Source: Fusobacterium perfoetens
Lineage (GTDB): Bacteria > Fusobacteriota > Fusobacteriia > Fusobacteriales > Fusobacteriaceae
DNA: 64,000 bases
NCBI RefSeq assembly: GCF_021531475.1
Contig: NZ_JADYTX010000002.1
Span: 1-64,000, forward strand
Direction: 5' to 3'
Shown: positions 6,585 through 41,460 of the stretch, one piece after another
How positions within the stretch are numbered: the stretch's first letter is position 1
Layout: the number at the start of each line of letters is the position of its first letter
Program-made: the position numbers and the translations under genes
The notes under the pieces: model-generated
What the model saw: only the letters and a program-made list of their open reading frames with translations
Told to the model about the DNA's origin: nothing
Databases searched by the model: none

Positions 6585-8249
6585 TTAGAATAATCCAGAG
6601 ATTTTTCCAAATTCATCAATATCTATTGTTTCAGCAGCTGGTACTTTTGGAAGTCCTGGCATATCGATAATATCTCCAGCCATAGCAATAATAAATCCAG
6701 CTCCAGCAGCCATTTTGATTTCGTTGATTTCAACAGTAAATCCACTTGGTCTACCTAATAAGTTAGCTTTATCTGATAAAGATTTTTGAGTTTTTGACAT
6801 ACAGATTGGAAGTTCGTTATATCCATTTTCTTCGATGAATGTTAACATTTTCTTAGCTTTTGCAGAGAATGTAACTCCAGCTCCACCATATATTTCTTTA
6901 ACTATTGTTTCAATTTTAGCTTTTGGAGAAAGAGATAAATCATATAGTGGTTTGTATTGTTCGTGGTTATTTTCAACAGCTTCAAGAACTAATTTGGCAA
7001 GTTCTTCTCCACCTTCTCCACCTTTTGCCCATACATCACAAAGAGCAACTGGAACACCTTGTTCAAGGCATCTATTTCTTATTAAATCAAATTCAGCTTC
7101 AGTGTCTGTTAAGAATCTATTCATTGCAACAACAACTGGAAGATTGTATTTTTTCATATTTTCAATATGTTTGTCTAAGTTTTCTAAACCTTTAGATAGT
7201 GCTTCTAAGTTTTCTACTCCTAAATCTTTTGCTCCACCGTGGTGTTTTAGAGCTCTAACTGTAGCAACTATTACAACGCAGTTAGGAGAAAGATTTCCTT
7301 GTCTACATTTAATATCTAAGAATTTTTCAGCTCCTAAGTCAGCAGCAAATCCAGCTTCTGTAATTGCGTAGTCACTCAATTTTAAAGCCATTTTTGTAGC
7401 GATTAAAGAGTTACATCCATGAGCTATATTTGCAAATGGTCCTCCGTGGATAAGTACTGGAGTATTTTCAAGAGTTTGAACTAAGTTTGGTTTTATAGCA
7501 TCTTTTAATAATGCTGTTACAGCTCCAGTAATTTTTAAATCAGCTACTGTAAGTGGTTTTCCATTTACATCATAAGCAAAAATTATTCTAGCAATTTTTT
7601 CTTTTAAATCTTTTAAAGAATTAGCAAGACATAAAGATGCCATAATTTCTGATGCAACTGTTATTTGGAAAGAGTTTTCTCTAGGAATTCCAGAAGCAGA
7701 ACCTCCAAGACCAATAACTATATTTCTCAAAGATCTGTCGTTCATATCTACAACTCTTTTCCAAGTTATTTTTGTTATATCAATATTTAATTTATTTCCA
7801 AATTTAATATGGTTGTCTATTACTGCAGAGATAAGGTTATGAGCTACACCGATAGCATGTAAATCTCCAGTGAAGTGTAAGTTGATTTCTTCCATTGGAA
7901 CTACTTGAGAATATCCTCCACCTGTTGCTCCACCTTTTATTCCGAATACAGGTCCAAGTGATGGTTCTCTAAGAGCTGCCATTGAATTATATCCCATTCT
8001 GTTTAGAGCTTGTGTAAGTCCTACTGTAACAGTTGATTTTCCTTCTCCAGCTGGTGTAGGAGTGATAGCAGTTACAAGAACTAATTTTCCATCTTTTTTA
8101 TCAGATAATCTGTTTAAAAGATTAAAGTCAATTTTTGCTTTGTATTTTCCATACATTTCATAGTCATCTTCTGTAAGACCTAATTTTTCAGCAATTTTAC
8201 TTATAGGTAATAATTTTGCCTCTTGAGCTATTTGGATATCTGTTTTCAT
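6585..8249 (-). CDS. fhs: Formate-tetrahydrofolate ligase
   Basis: A 554-residue enzyme making 10-formyl-THF from formate, THF and ATP. The P-loop-like motif [11 protein letters not shown] is at 63-73 and the length is usual for the family (about 555). RBS AGGAGG precedes the ATG. It supplies one-carbon units for purines and other synthesis. The mRNA leader is a ZTP riboswitch, so expression should rise when 10-formyl-THF is limiting and ZTP accumulates. The gene is monocistronic. Confidence 0.97.
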
Positions 8250-8284: not shown

Positions 8285-8382
8285 AAAAAAAGCCGAACTT
8301 CTAGGCTTTTTTGCCCAGACGGTCGGCTTACTAAGAGTTATACTCCCTGTGGTCAGTTCCACTTCCGTCAGTTGTATAACCA
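8285..8382 (-). ncRNA. ZTP riboswitch (pfl motif) with terminator platform
   Basis: Read on the minus strand, the leader contains AACTGACGGAAGTGG, then CCACAGGGAGTATAAC and GCCGACCGTCTGGGCA. These are the conserved blocks of ZTP/AICAR-sensing pfl RNAs, whose known targets include fhs. The aptamer spans about 8382-8312. Immediately downstream is a terminator (GCC, loop TAGAAGTTC, GGC with a T-run ending at 8285). The bases GCCGA of the aptamer 3' part can alternatively pair with TCGGC of the terminator. This fits ligand-stabilised antitermination. The predicted RNA start coincides with the aptamer's first base. Confidence 0.93.
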
Positions 8383-8387
8383 AGTTT

Positions 8388-13795: not shown

Positions 13796-14455
13796 TTAGA
13801 AACCTTCAAATAGAGGTTCTCCAAATTCTAATTCTTTGTCAGTAGCTTCTCTAACACCTAAAACTTCTAATTCAAATCTAACATTTCTTCCAGCAAATGG
13901 GTGGTTTCCATCAGCTGTAACAACATCATCTTCAACTTTTGTGATAACGAAAGATTGCTCAGAACCATCTTCTAAGTCAGCTATAAAGTCAAGTCCAACA
14001 TAGATATCCTCAAATTCAACGAAGTCTTTTCTGTCCATTTCAACAACTAATTCTTCGTCACGTTCTCCGTATCCTTCTTCAACAGTTAAAGAAACTGTAT
14101 CTTTATATCCAGCTTTTTGACCAGTTAAAACTTCTTCGATTTTTGGAACGAAAGCTCCCATACCTTGAATATAGAAGAAAGGTCCAACTTCTTTAGTATC
14201 TTCTAATAATTCGTTAGTGTCATTGTCATATACTTTAAACTCAACAGTAACAACTTTACCTTCAGATATAGTGTTTGTGTTTCCTTTAGCTCTTTCAGAA
14301 GCTAATTTTTCTCTCAACTCTTTTATTTTATCTTCGTGGTTATGTCCACAACAACATTCTCCATCTTCATGGTGATGATGATGTTCATGTCCTCCACAAC
14401 ATTCGTGTTCTTTTTCGTGGTCATGTCCACAACAACATTCTTTTTCTTTATCCAT
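13796..14455 (-). CDS. SlyD-like FKBP peptidyl-prolyl isomerase with N-terminal His/Cys metal-binding segment
   Basis: A 219-residue protein. Residues 1-42 contain 8 Cys and 11 His in repeated CCCGHxH-like clusters. A charged helix and then a SlyD-type FKBP/insert-in-flap domain follow (GKVVTVEFKVYD, GPFFYIQGMGAFVPKIEEVL, EEGYGERD, DGNHPFAGRNVRFELEV). SlyD proteins fold clients and carry nickel or other metals on a C-terminal His tail; here the metal segment is at the N-terminus. Cytoplasmic. First gene of an operon with rpiB and HIT. A good RBS (GAGAGGTG) precedes the ATG. Confidence 0.9.
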   Translation of the reverse strand: MDKEKECCCGHDHEKEHECCGGHEHHHHHEDGECCCGHNHEDKIKELREKLASERAKGNTNTISEGKVVTVEFKVYDNDTNELLEDTKEVGPFFYIQGMGAFVPKIEEVLTGQKAGYKDTVSLTVEEGYGERDEELVVEMDRKDFVEFEDIYVGLDFIADLEDGSEQSFVITKVEDDVVTADGNHPFAGRNVRFELEVLGVREATDKELEFGEPLFEGF

Positions 14456-14489
14456 AATAACACCTCTCTTGTTTTAATTTGCTATCAAT

Positions 14490-35908: not shown

Positions 35909-37297
35909 ATGGATAGATTAAAAAAACAAATAGATTTTTTGATAGAAATTGATAAACTTAAGGGGATACTTCGTCAAAGTCTTGTATTAGACGGAACAAG
36001 ACGTGAGAATGACACAGAACACTCTTGGCATATGGCAACGTCAGCTTTTATCCTAAGAGAGTATTACAAAAAAGATGTGGATATGGAAAGAGTAATAAAA
36101 ATGGTACTTATCCACGACGTTGTAGAGATTTTAGCAGGAGATACTCCAGCTTATAGCGACTACTCAGCAGAAGAAAAATATCAAAAAGAAGTGGCTAGTG
36201 CAAAAGAAACTTTTGGAATTTTACCAGATGACCAAAGAGAAGAATATATTGCTCTTTGGAATGAGTTTGAGGATATGGAAACAGATGAGTCAAAATTTGC
36301 TAATGCTTGTGATAGATTTCAAGGATTTATCCAAAACGTTACAAGTGATGCTCACACTTGGAGAAAATTCAGTCCTAAAAAAAGAAGAATTCTAAAAAGA
36401 ATGAGACCTATAATAGAATATATGCCAGAAGTTTATAATGGATATATCAAAGACTACTTACAAAAATATATTGACTTAGGTGTTGTAGAAGATGATTTTC
36501 CTATAAAAGCTGTGGTTACAGATATGGACGGAACTTTTTTAGCAACAGATAAAAGCATAAGTGATGAAAATAGAGAGGTAGTTGCAAAAGTAATAGACAA
36601 AGGTTTAGAATTTGTAGTGGCATCAGGTAGAGATTCTGTAAGCATAAAAGAACTTGTAAAAGATATTTCTGGAATAAAATATATAATCAGTCTAAATGGT
36701 GCAAGAGTTTATAAAAATGATGAGATTATATATGAGGCATCTATTGATGAAGACGTATCTTATGATATCCTTTCAAAAGCCAGTGAGATAAATCTTGAGT
36801 ATAGTGCCACTGGAGAAAAAAATATCTATTATTCACAACTTGATTTAGAATATAAAAATATTATAAATAATCCAAACTCAGGATTAAATTTTATATGTGA
36901 CAAAGAAAAGAAAAATATATTAAAAGATAAATATCAAAAACTTGTATTCTACAATGATAAAGAAAAATTTAAAGTTTTAAGAGATTATGTAAACGAAAAA
37001 TATTCAGACAAGGTAAATATATTTGATTCTGGAGATAGAATAATGGATATTGTATCAAAAGAAACAAACAAAGGAAAAGGACTTAGAATAGTGGCTGAGG
37101 ATATGGGAATAGCCTTAGATGAAATCATAGCTTTTGGAGATAATGAAAATGACCTTTCAATGTTAGAAGAGGTTATCTATTCTGTAGCTATGGGAAATAG
37201 TTTGGATATAGTCAAAGAAAAAGTTAGATATGTTGGAAAAACTAATAATGAGAGCGGAGTGGCTAAATTTTTAAATTTATTTTTAAAACTTGATTAG
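35909..37297 (+). CDS. Fused HD-domain hydrolase and Cof-type HAD phosphatase
   Basis: A 462-residue two-domain protein. Residues 1-195 form an HD phosphohydrolase of the YfbR/HDDC2 type (TEHSWH near 37, LIHDVVEI near 68, CDRFQGF). From about 199 a Cof/YbiV-like HAD phosphatase follows (DMDGTFL with nucleophile Asp205, ASGR, LNGARV, then GKGLRIVAEDMG and FGDNENDLSML). Both active sites appear complete. Probable substrates are deoxynucleotides for the HD part and sugar phosphates, FMN or other phosphomonoesters for the HAD part. RBS AAGGAGG. Confidence 0.9.
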   Translation: MDRLKKQIDFLIEIDKLKGILRQSLVLDGTRRENDTEHSWHMATSAFILREYYKKDVDMERVIKMVLIHDVVEILAGDTPAYSDYSAEEKYQKEVASAKETFGILPDDQREEYIALWNEFEDMETDESKFANACDRFQGFIQNVTSDAHTWRKFSPKKRRILKRMRPIIEYMPEVYNGYIKDYLQKYIDLGVVEDDFPIKAVVTDMDGTFLATDKSISDENREVVAKVIDKGLEFVVASGRDSVSIKELVKDISGIKYIISLNGARVYKNDEIIYEASIDEDVSYDILSKASEINLEYSATGEKNIYYSQLDLEYKNIINNPNSGLNFICDKEKKNILKDKYQKLVFYNDKEKFKVLRDYVNEKYSDKVNIFDSGDRIMDIVSKETNKGKGLRIVAEDMGIALDEIIAFGDNENDLSMLEEVIYSVAMGNSLDIVKEKVRYVGKTNNESGVAKFLNLFLKLD

Positions 37298-37309: not shown

Positions 37310-38062
37310 ATGAAATTTATTTCGTGGAACGTTAATGGTATAAGAGCTTGTATGACAAAAGGGTTTATGGATTTTTTCAAGGAAGTAGACGCAGATATAT
37401 TTTGTCTTCAAGAAACAAAACTTCAAGCTGGTCAAATAGAGATGGACTTAGAAGGTTATCATCAATATTGGAACTATGCTGAGAAAAAAGGTTATTCAGG
37501 AACAGCGATTTTTACAAAAAAAGAGCCAATCAGTGTGGCTTATGGTCTTGGAATAGAGGAACACGACAAAGAGGGAAGAGTAATAACTTTAGAGTTTGAT
37601 GATTTTTATTTTATAACAGTTTATACTCCAAACTCTCAAACAGAGTTAGCTAGACTTTCATACAGAATGACTTGGGAAGATGATTTTAAAAAATATCTAA
37701 AAAAATTAGAAGAGAAAAAACCAGTTATATTCTGTGGAGATTTAAACGTGGCTCACAAAGAGATAGACTTAAAAAATCCTAAGACAAATAGAAAAAATGC
37801 AGGATTTACAGATGAAGAGAGAGCTAAATTTACTGAGCTTGTAAATGATGGATTTATAGATACTTTCCGTTATTTCTATCCAGAGATGGAGGGGATCTAT
37901 TCGTGGTGGTCTTATAGATTCAAAGCTAGAGAGAAAAATGCAGGGTGGAGAATAGACTATTTTATGGTATCTAGTTCTTTAAAAGATAGACTAGAAAGTG
38001 CTAAAATCCATACTGAAATCTATGGTTCAGATCATTGTCCAGTGGAGCTTGTTTTAAAATAA
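37310..38062 (+). CDS. xth: Exodeoxyribonuclease III (AP endonuclease)
   Basis: A 250-residue DNA-repair enzyme of the ExoIII/ExoA type. It has WNVNGIRA at 5-12, [27 protein letters not shown] and GSDHCPV, i.e. the full metal and catalytic set. It cuts abasic sites and removes 3' blocks. RBS AAAGGAG, 12 bases after the HD/HAD gene, so co-transcribed. Confidence 0.96.
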
Positions 38063-38094: not shown

Positions 38095-38123
38095 TTGCAT
38101 TTTTTCTAAAATTGTGATATAGT
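38095..38123 (+). promoter_or_regulatory. Promoter of the ileS leader transcript
   Basis: TTGCAT at 38095-38100, 17-bp spacer, TG extension and TATAGT at 38118-38123. The start would be near 38130, 24 bases before the leader peptide. Confidence 0.75.
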
Positions 38124-38153
38124 GTACCTAACAAAAAACAAAGAGAGGGAAAA

Positions 38154-38234
38154 ATGATGACAATTATCAGCATTATAATAATATCAATAATATGCCTAAA
38201 AAAGAATATTATAGATAGTATTGTGGTGTTGTAA
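38154..38234 (+). CDS. Isoleucine-rich leader peptide of ileS
   Basis: A 26-codon frame (second ATG at 38157) with GAGGGA just upstream. It encodes 11 isoleucines, clustered as TIISIIIISII near the start and again near the end. It lies between a good promoter and a strong terminator directly before isoleucyl-tRNA synthetase. This is the classical arrangement for attenuation: stalling at Ile codons when charged tRNA-Ile is scarce would favour readthrough. No T-box sequence is present. Not a stable functional protein; the role is inferred from position and composition. Confidence 0.8.
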   Translation: MMTIISIIIISIICLKKNIIDSIVVL

Positions 38235-38240
38235 AAATTG

Positions 38241-38296
38241 TTATTAATATAAAAATTTAATTAATAAAGGCAACCTGCAAGGGTTGCCTTTTTTTA
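38241..38296 (+). terminator. Attenuator hairpins of the ileS leader
   Basis: Terminator AAAGGCAACC (38266-38275) with GGTTGCCTTT (38282-38291) and seven T. Just before it, TTATTAAT (38241-38248) can pair with ATTAATAA (38260-38267), overlapping the terminator's first bases. GTTG near the leader stop (38228-38231) could alternatively pair with CAAC of the terminator arm. Confidence 0.8.
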
Positions 38297-38331
38297 TTCA
38301 AAGATTGATAAAGTTTAGCAGGAGGGGATTT

Positions 38332-41300
38332 ATGTACAAAAAAGTATCTACTAATTTGAATTTCGTAGAAAGAGAAAAAGAAATTGAAAAGTTTTGGGAA
38401 GAAAACAAGATTTTTGAAAAAAGCTTGGAGTTAAGAAAAGGAGATAAGACATACACTTTCTATGACGGACCACCAACAGCAAATGGAAAACCTCATATCG
38501 GTCACGTTTTAACAAGGGTTATAAAAGATATGATCCCTAGATATAGAACAATGAAAGGATATGACGTTCCTAGAAAAGCTGGTTGGGATACTCACGGTTT
38601 ACCAGTAGAACTAGAAGTTGAAAAACTTTTAGGAATCAACGGAAAAGAACAAATCGAAACTTATGGTTTAGAGCCATTTATAAAAGAGTGTAAACAAAGC
38701 GTTTGGAAATATAAAGGAATGTGGGAAGATTTTTCTAAGACAGTTGGATTCTGGGCTGATATGGAAAATCCTTATGTAACTTATGATAATAACTTTATAG
38801 AGTCTGAATGGTGGGCTTTAAAACAAATCTGGGATAAAGGACTTTTATACAAAGGATTTAAAATCGTTCCTTATTGTCCAAGATGTGGAACTCCATTATC
38901 AAGTCACGAAGTAGCTCAAGGATATAAAGATGTTAAAGAAAGATCAGCAATAGTTAGATTTAAAGTAAAAAATGAAGACGCATATATTCTAGCTTGGACA
39001 ACTACTCCTTGGACATTACCTTCAAACGTAGCTCTTTGTGTTAACCCTAACGAAGCTTATGTAAAAGTTAAACACGGAGAATACACTTATTATATGGCTG
39101 AAGCTTTAGTTGAAGCTGTATTAAAAGAAAATTTTGAAATTTTAGAAAGATATACTGGAAAAGATTTAGAATACAAAGAATATGAACCATTATTTGATTT
39201 TGTAAATCCAAATAAAAAATGTTGGTTTGTAACTTGTGACACTTATGTAACATTAACTGATGGTACAGGAGTAGTTCATATTGCTCCAGCTTTCGGGGAA
39301 GATGACGCCAACGTTGGAAGAAACTACGATTTACCATTTGTACAACTTGTAGACGCTAAAGGGGAAATGACAAAAGAAACTCCTTGGGCTGGAACTTTCT
39401 GTAAAAAAGCTGATAATCCAATCTTAGTTGACTTAGAAGAAAGAGGACTATTATTTGACGCTCCAAAATATGAGCATAGTTATCCACACTGCTGGAGATG
39501 TGATACACCACTTATCTATTATGCAAGAGAATCTTGGTTTATCAAAATGACAGCTGTTAAAGAAGACTTAATCAAAAATAATAATAAAATTAACTGGATT
39601 CCAAAAAGTATCGGTAAAGGACGTTTTGGAGATTGGCTAGAAAATGTACAAGATTGGGGAATCAGCCGTGACAGATATTGGGGAACTCCACTTAACGTTT
39701 GGGAATGTGAATGTGGTCACAGACACGCAATCGGAAGTATCCAAGAATTAAAAGAGATGTCACCAAACTGCCCTGAAAATATCGAACTTCATCGTCCATA
39801 TATAGACGAAGTAACTATTACTTGTCCTCACTGTGGAAAACAAATGAGAAGAGTAAAAGAAGTTATCGACTGTTGGTTTGACTCTGGTTCAATGCCATTT
39901 GCTCAACATCACTATCCATTTGAAAATCAAGATTTGTTTAAACAACAATTCCCAGCTGATTTCATTTCAGAAGCTGTAGACCAAACAAGAGGTTGGTTCT
40001 ATTCATTATTAGCTGTTTCAACATTGATTTTCAATGAAGCACCATATAAAAACGTAATAGTTCTTGGACACGTTCAAGATGAAAATGGACAAAAAATGTC
40101 TAAATCTAAAGGAAATGCTGTTGACCCATTTGAAGCACTAGCTACTTATGGAGCAGACGCAATTCGTTGGTATTTCTATATTAACTCAGCTCCTTGGTTA
40201 CCAAATAGATTCCACGGAAAAGCAGTTCTTGAAGGACAACGTAAATTTATGTCAACTTTATGGAACACTTATGCTTTCTATGTATTATACGCTGAGATAG
40301 ATAAATTTGATCCTACAAAATATACTTTAGATAAATCAAAACTTACAGTAATGGATAAATGGTTATTATCTAAATTAAACACTGTCGTAAAAGAAGTAGA
40401 TGAAAACTTAGCTGATTACAAACTTCTTGAAGCTGCAAGATGTATGCAAGATTTCGTTGATGAGTTAAGTAACTGGTACGTAAGAAGAAGTAGAGAACGT
40501 TTCTGGGTACAAGAAATGACAGAAGATAAAATCACAGCTTACATGACTTTATACACAACTTTACTAACTATGGCAAAACTTGCTGCTCCAATGATTCCAT
40601 TTATGACAGAAGAAATTTACCAAAATATAGTTAGACAAGTAAATCCAGATGCTCCAGAAAGTATCCATTTATGTGACTATCCAGTAGTTGATGAAACTGT
40701 AATTGATAAAGAATTAGAAGATAATATGGAAGAAGTTCTACAAATCGTAACTTTAGGAAGAGCTTGTAGAAATGCTGCTAATATTAAAAATAGACAGCCA
40801 CTTGCTAACATCTATGTTCAAGCTGAAAATAAATTAAATGAACTTTATCAAAATATAGTTAAAGAAGAATTAAATATCAAAAATATTGAATTCACTGAAG
40901 ATTCAGCTCAATTTACTTCTTACAAATTTAAACCACAATTAAAAACTTTAGGTCAAAGATTTGGTAAAAAAGTAAATGAAATTAGAACTCTACTTGCTGA
41001 CATTGATGGAAAACAAGCTAAAAAAGATTTAGATACACTTGGATTTGTAACTTTAGTATTATCTGACGGAGAAGAAGCTAAACTTGCTGAAGCTGATCTA
41101 TTAATCGAAACAGTTCAAAGCGAAGGATATGTACCTTTAACTGATAGAGGAATAACTGTAGTTCTTGATACAAACTTGACTCCTGAATTACTAGAAGAAG
41201 GATTTGTAAGAGAAGTTGTAAGTAAAATCCAAGCAATGCGTAAAGAGGCAGATTTCAATATCACAGACCATATTCAACTATTTGTAGCTGAAAATGATAA

Positions 41301-41442
41301 GATAAAAGAAATCGTTTCAAGAAACGCAGAAGCAATTAAATATGATACTTTAACAGACGAAGTTGTATTTGATACTGTTGATGGATTCGTTCAAGATGTA
41401 AATATCAACGGAGAAAAAGTTAAATTTGGAATTAAAGTAAAA
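38332..41442 (+). CDS. ileS: Isoleucyl-tRNA synthetase, eukaryote-like (type 2) form
   Basis: A 1036-residue class I synthetase. The HIGH motif is in TANGKPHIGHVLTR (55-58) and KMSKS is at 588-592. The editing domain (WTTTPWTLPSN) and anticodon domain (LSNWYVRRSRERFW) are present. The sequence around HIGH (DGPPTANGKPHIGHV, then RKAGWDTHGLPVE) is of the IleS2 type, which in known cases tolerates mupirocin. The start at 38332 follows AGGAGG; the longer frame runs back into the terminator. Regulated by the upstream Ile leader. Confidence 0.97.
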
Positions 41443-41460
41443 TAATAAAATGATTTTTTG

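Follow-up and report, generated by a model that had tools for sequence, protein, structure and literature searches.

Organization of the ileS2 leader region

Within the window, the whole 64-kb stretch of DNA analyzed here, the gene ileS2 (38332-41445, + strand) encodes a 1037-aa isoleucyl-tRNA synthetase (IleRS), with an ATG at 38332 and a Shine-Dalgarno (SD) sequence at 38320-38327. The upstream neighbor of its leader is an exodeoxyribonuclease III gene (exoIII, 37310-38062). The leader, all on the + strand, starts from a predicted sigma-70-type promoter at 38095-38123, recognized by inspection and by a scan, with a -35 element TTGCAT (38095-38100), a 17-nt spacer and a -10 element TATAGT (38118-38123). 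Next come a leader SD sequence, AGAGAGGG (38142-38149), and a frame of 26 codons, 11 of them Ile codons (38154-38234), that would encode the peptide MMTIISIIIISIICLKKNIIDSIVVL. A terminator scan of the leader found one intrinsic terminator, with 0.0 expected from shuffled sequences; it spans 38266-38298 and consists of a stem at 38266-38291 and a T-run. The promoter lies between the upstream gene and this terminator in the scan, while neither inspection nor the scan revealed a convincing second promoter between the terminator and ileS2. Every element that the initial annotation had described ahead of ileS, namely a promoter, a 26-codon frame that includes 11 Ile codons, a pre-terminator hairpin and a strong terminator, is present where it had been placed.

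The leader region is very AT-rich, and Ile codons and AU helices arise cheaply in such sequence. Even so, only 0.125% of dinucleotide shuffles of the intergenic region contained a short frame that reached 11 Ile codons, a share that fell to 0.005% when an SD sequence was also required. When both strands of the window were searched, the frame was the sole case of an 11-Ile short frame with an SD sequence. None of the Rfam families overlaps the leader.

A type-2 isoleucyl-tRNA synthetase beside a type-1 enzyme

By full-length similarity, the ileS2 product is a type-2 (eukaryote-like) IleRS. It scores 1077 bits against the NCBIfam MupA model, 1056 bits against MupB and 987 bits against TIGR00392, and the type-1 enzyme of the same genome reaches only 362 bits with the MupA model. 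The best-matching solved structures are those of Priestia megaterium IleRS2 (among them 8c8v; 1128 bits along the full chain), as compared with only 403 bits for the P. megaterium type-1 entry 8c9e; the species and type of these structures are as assigned in PMC10485003. The protein is distinct from the plasmid enzymes themselves: its 1077 bits lie under the curated cut-off of 1900 bits for MupA proper (NCBIfam NF000257), its 1056 bits lie under the 1900-bit cut-off for the plasmid enzyme MupB, and its identity to MupA is only about 46%. IleRS2 carries a canonical HIGH motif, for which mupirocin resistance without hyper-resistance would be expected (PMC10485003). The fusobacterial IleRS2 is therefore a putative drug-resistant enzyme.

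The housekeeping type-1 gene, ileS1, encodes 925 residues and lies on a separate contig of the same genome (G000:C5:53889-56663). It begins 3 bases past a histidine-kinase-like gene and is followed by lspA, and inspection of this operon context revealed no leader before ileS1. In a plasmid collection, ileS1 comes closest to a Fusobacterium vincentii record, at 71%, with all further records below 60%; the window therefore most likely derives from the Fusobacteriaceae.

Across a comparison set of 98 genomes of the phylum, in which G000 denotes the genome of the window, type-2 ileS occurs in eight genomes of two genera: G000 and G001 in the genus of the window, and six in another genus. Seven of these eight also have a type-1 ileS. 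The exception is G001, a genome that is 99% complete, where type-1 ileS is absent from its usual place, a whole-genome search found no copy elsewhere, and the neighbors of ileS1 in G000 are separated by only 87 bases. Judged from its genome sequence, this relative relies on the putatively attenuated ileS2 as its sole IleRS gene. The ileS1 gap in G001 runs from the histidine-kinase gene to lspA, at about 14399-14487 of locus L125 (G001:C1:99500-115500). The G001 type-2 ileS is located just upstream of this block, which comprises tex, kinase, lspA and glyQ.

Conservation of the leader

A leader cassette comprising promoter, short frame with an Ile run, protector helix, terminator and antiterminator was found at all eight type-2 ileS loci, a conservation that rests on eight related sequences in about four clusters. 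The -10 region and the promoter spacing are kept in the seven other leaders, and a purine-rich SD site is found in all eight. The predicted peptides are MMTIISIIIISIICLKKNIIDSIVVL in G000, MNFTNTIIIISSIIK in G001, MGYRKAIIIISIICSK in G074 and G079, MTLRAAIIIIISIICFQ in G075 and G076, MALRVAIIIIISIICFQ in G077 and MTLRAAIIIIISIIYFQ in G078. In every leader the Ile run is preceded by six codons and varies by whole codons only, and the peptide drifts between species outside the run. The G000 run, ATT-ATA-ATA-ATA-TCA-ATA-ATA (38172-38192), forms the core of segment 1 of the proposed attenuator. Alignment of related leaders had been named as a check in the initial annotation, and it shows the leader Ile codons retained at 8/8 loci. 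The 26-codon length proved to be a local feature: the frame is present in G000, but the conserved leader has 15-17 codons, with 6-7 Ile codons in the other seven species.

The G000 frame lacks the stop codon of the seven other leaders; it reads on through 38190-38234 and ends within segment 2b, described below. It is possible that a terminating ribosome in G000 would itself block the antiterminator, which would be a shift of attenuator logic within the family. Sensing of Val or Leu was considered and rejected, as the VVL residues occur only in the G000 extension and are not conserved.

A covariance model built from the eight leaders recovered these eight from the 98 genomes at E-values of 1.2e-16 or better and gave no convincing match in those genomes beyond the eight type-2 ileS loci. 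Weak matches in G014, G001:C5, G026, G080, G032, G010 and G030 resemble plain terminators at gene ends and were rejected. The genes upstream of the leader vary by species (exoIII, rpsP and others), which indicates that the leader and ileS2 travel together.

RNA secondary structure of the leader

The Ile-codon run is predicted to pair with the segment that follows it (AAUAUUAUAGAU.UUAUU), forming a long helix in which segment 2b is masked as well. In G000 this protector (1:2) hairpin spans 38155-38246, and its core joins 38168-38193 with 38206-38231. Relative to shuffled sequences, the protector has z-scores of -1.9 to -6.2 across the eight leaders (-5.0 in G000), and the whole leader has z-scores of -3.3 to -7.7. 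In the model structure 96% of cells are paired, as against 30-58% when the structure is slid, and five pairs have changed on both sides; the terminator also shows compensatory pair changes between species. Covariation and pairing in eight related leaders support the structure, short of proof.

With the protector absent, an antiterminator is predicted, in which segment 2b pairs with the terminator loop and 5' arm. In G000 the 5' strand is UUGUGG-U-GUUGU (38221-38232) and the 3' strand is segment 3, GCAACCUGCAA (38270-38280), which overlaps the terminator 5' arm and loop. The antiterminator is the best single fold at seven of the eight loci, with another fold being slightly better in G077. Scored by itself, it surpasses shuffled sequence by only a small margin. 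It is predicted to be mutually exclusive with both the protector and the terminator.

These structures bear on a different explanation of the short frame, namely that its product is a small hydrophobic peptide with an activity of its own, for example as a type I toxin, with the terminator ending its transcript and ileS2 being expressed from a separate, unseen promoter. Known small membrane toxins are short and Ile-rich, as is the G000 peptide. However, the peptides of the seven other species have 15-17 residues and vary outside the Ile run, the frame is found only before ileS2, the interval between terminator and ileS2 offers no convincing second promoter, and segment 2 is both complementary to the Ile codons and a competitor of the terminator. 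We consider a self-acting peptide very unlikely.

Effect of ribosome position on the predicted fold

The transcript was folded as far as the loop of the terminator while a ribosome, represented by a 30-nt footprint, was moved along the frame codon by codon; this footprint size and equilibrium folding are assumptions. When no ribosome is present, all eight leaders sequester segment 2b in the protector, with 12-16 expected pairs, and have little or no antiterminator, which never exceeds 0.5 pairs. Placing the first Ile codon (codon 4 of the G000 leader) in the A site reverses the predicted fold in each of the eight: 7.5-12.3 pairs now belong to the antiterminator, and no more than 1.8 remain in the protector. 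A ribosome at the stop codon restores the protector in six leaders, and in G000 it covers segment 2b itself. G001 is an exception, since a ribosome at its stop codon leaves the antiterminator possible. When the stretch from frame to terminator was shuffled in six leaders, with 400 trials, the switch arose 0, 0, 4, 0, 1 and 0 times.

In G075, G076, G078 and, in part, G077, a stall further along the Ile codons favors the antiterminator much less, suggesting that the effect in these leaders depends mainly on the first two Ile codons. Some middle codons of the Ile run in G000 are also weak for the antiterminator.

One could also suppose that there is no regulation at all, the Ile-rich frame being a by-product of AT-rich sequence and the terminator serving the upstream gene. 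While the genome is AT-rich and intergenic terminators are common, this explanation sits poorly with the presence of a promoter between the upstream gene and the terminator, with the retention of promoter, frame, helix and terminator beside ileS2 as the upstream gene varies, and with the chance tests on shuffled frames and on the shuffled switch. The probability that we would assign to it is accordingly slight.

Proposed mechanism of ileS2 control

We propose that ileS2, a second, type-2 ileS, is very probably controlled by a ribosome-mediated transcription attenuator that senses tRNA-Ile charging, a model that draws on sequence conservation and folding. When Ile-tRNA is plentiful, a ribosome would pass the Ile codons and reach the stop codon. 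The protector helix would then form or, in G000, the ribosome at the stop codon would cover segment 2b instead; the terminator would form, and transcription would stop ahead of ileS2. When Ile-tRNA is scarce, through isoleucine shortage or inhibition of the type-1 enzyme, the ribosome would stall as soon as it met the first Ile codons. In that position it would prevent formation of the protector, segment 2b would pair with the terminator 5' arm and loop, and with the antiterminator formed, RNA polymerase would continue into ileS2. Stalling, termination efficiency and induction of ileS2 are predictions of the sequences and models. The ribosome-stalling attenuator suggested in the initial annotation is thus borne out as a good fit to the sequence, with a conserved Ile run, protector and terminator and a predicted switch beyond shuffled controls. 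Its proposed target needs amending: the gene does encode an isoleucyl-tRNA synthetase, but one that is a second, type-2 (MupA-like) enzyme and not the ordinary ileS.

In seven of the eight species, ileS2 would back up the housekeeping enzyme in an inducible manner. In G001, where ileS2 is the only IleRS gene, the switch would work as feedback. A related possibility keeps the same attenuator and assigns it to ordinary isoleucine homeostasis, as opposed to a response to antibiotics that act on the type-1 enzyme. Attenuation of pheST in γ-proteobacteria has such a role (PMC1262725), and G001 retains the leader with only a type-2 gene. However, seven of the eight genomes already possess a leaderless type-1 ileS, so that control of supply alone would be redundant, and type-2 enzymes are the known route to mupirocin resistance (PMC10485003). 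We view a homeostatic role as a serious contender whose chances fall somewhat short of even. If the back-up model is correct, inhibition of the housekeeping IleRS would itself induce the resistant-type enzyme, and inducible tolerance to IleRS inhibitors is predicted in some fusobacteria.

Origin of ileS2 and possible replacement of a T-box

The eight fusobacterial IleRS2 proteins make up a single supported clade (SH-aLRT 99) next to clostridial enzymes, the nearest of which has 76% identity. The tree was rooted by midpoint, which makes the direction of transfer presumptive. The gene is accessory and was apparently acquired horizontally. In the nearest clostridial lineages, an Rfam T-box lies directly upstream of ileS at 10 of 11 loci, and no convincing Ile-rich leader was found near the gene at clostridial ileS2 loci. 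At the eight fusobacterial leaders the Rfam T-box model gave 0/8 matches, and it gave none in the window or elsewhere in G000, in agreement with the initial annotation, which had seen no T-box before ileS.

A 2008 survey reported no T-boxes in Fusobacteria or Thermotogae (PMC2494555). The idea that the phylum lacks T-boxes is contradicted by matches in 20 of the 98 genomes. Two of them score above the gathering score, at L164 (G074:C53:5272-5519) and L165 (G006:C2:400391-400662), and those in 18 other genomes are weaker. These matches, along with the T-boxes of the nearest clostridial ileS2 genes, would be the grounds for viewing the leader as a diverged T-box or another tRNA-binding RNA. Given the lack of a T-box match at the eight leaders and a length of only ~170 nt that is taken up by frame, protector and terminator, the likelihood of this explanation is close to negligible.

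For the stalling attenuator, the simplest reading of the sequences seems to be that one tRNA-charging sensor replaced another after gene transfer; alternatively, the donor of ileS2 may itself have had no T-box. We regard as evenly balanced a fuller scenario in which a clostridial type-2 ileS entered a fusobacterial ancestor, its T-box was swapped for a stalling attenuator to give a self-triggering back-up, and in one lineage the switchable copy displaced the housekeeping gene. One gene family would then show two unrelated RNA sensors of tRNA charging substituting for each other after gene transfer.

Relationship to known systems

A close parallel is the auxiliary, indolmycin-resistant tryptophanyl-tRNA synthetase of Streptomyces coelicolor, which Vecchione and Sello (2010, as cited in PMC4787780) are said to have described as controlled by ribosome-mediated transcriptional attenuation. 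The two systems reportedly share a second, resistant-type synthetase beside a housekeeping enzyme and a leader with cognate codons. They differ in that the former involves Trp and actinobacteria, whereas the latter involves Ile, a type-2 IleRS and fusobacteria, and in that fusobacterial ileS2 is tied by descent to T-box-controlled relatives.

Leader-peptide attenuators are described for the synthetase genes pheST in γ-proteobacteria and trpS2 and leuS in Streptomyces (PMC1262725). These resemble the ileS2 leader in having a leader peptide with cognate codons and an antiterminator and terminator before the synthetase gene, but they concern other amino acids and other phyla. The same study reports no attenuator on ileS, and describes T-boxes for ileS in Actinobacteria. 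In Firmicutes, ileS is widely under T-box control (PMC2494555). The T-box shares with the ileS2 leader its input (tRNA-Ile charging), target (ileS) and output (antitermination); it binds tRNA directly, whereas the proposed sensor here is a translating ribosome and no T-box sequence is present.

Coexistence of type-1 and type-2 IleRS is named only for a small group of Bacillaceae (PMC10485003). The ileS1/ileS2 pair of P. megaterium and the staphylococcal plasmid gene mupA likewise place a type-2 IleRS beside a type-1 enzyme (PMC10485003), and P. megaterium IleRS2 shares the canonical HIGH motif. Unlike these, the ileS2 described here is fusobacterial and chromosomal and has a predicted leader-peptide attenuator. 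A literature search, mostly of freely accessible papers, turned up neither an Ile attenuator on ileS nor an attenuator on a fusobacterial synthetase gene. To our knowledge and in the literature searched, ileS would here have its first leader-peptide attenuator, and fusobacteria their first on a synthetase gene; the leader is an unusually clear predicted switch that is open to testing.

Other features of the window

A ZMP/ZTP riboswitch lies at 8306-8385 (- strand) of the window, directly upstream of a 554-aa frame (6585-8249, - strand) that, by its sequence, resembles formate-tetrahydrofolate ligase, a usual target of this riboswitch. At 35909-37297 (+ strand), one 462-aa frame combines an HD/YfbR-like nucleotidase domain with a Cof-type HAD hydrolase domain (Pfam).
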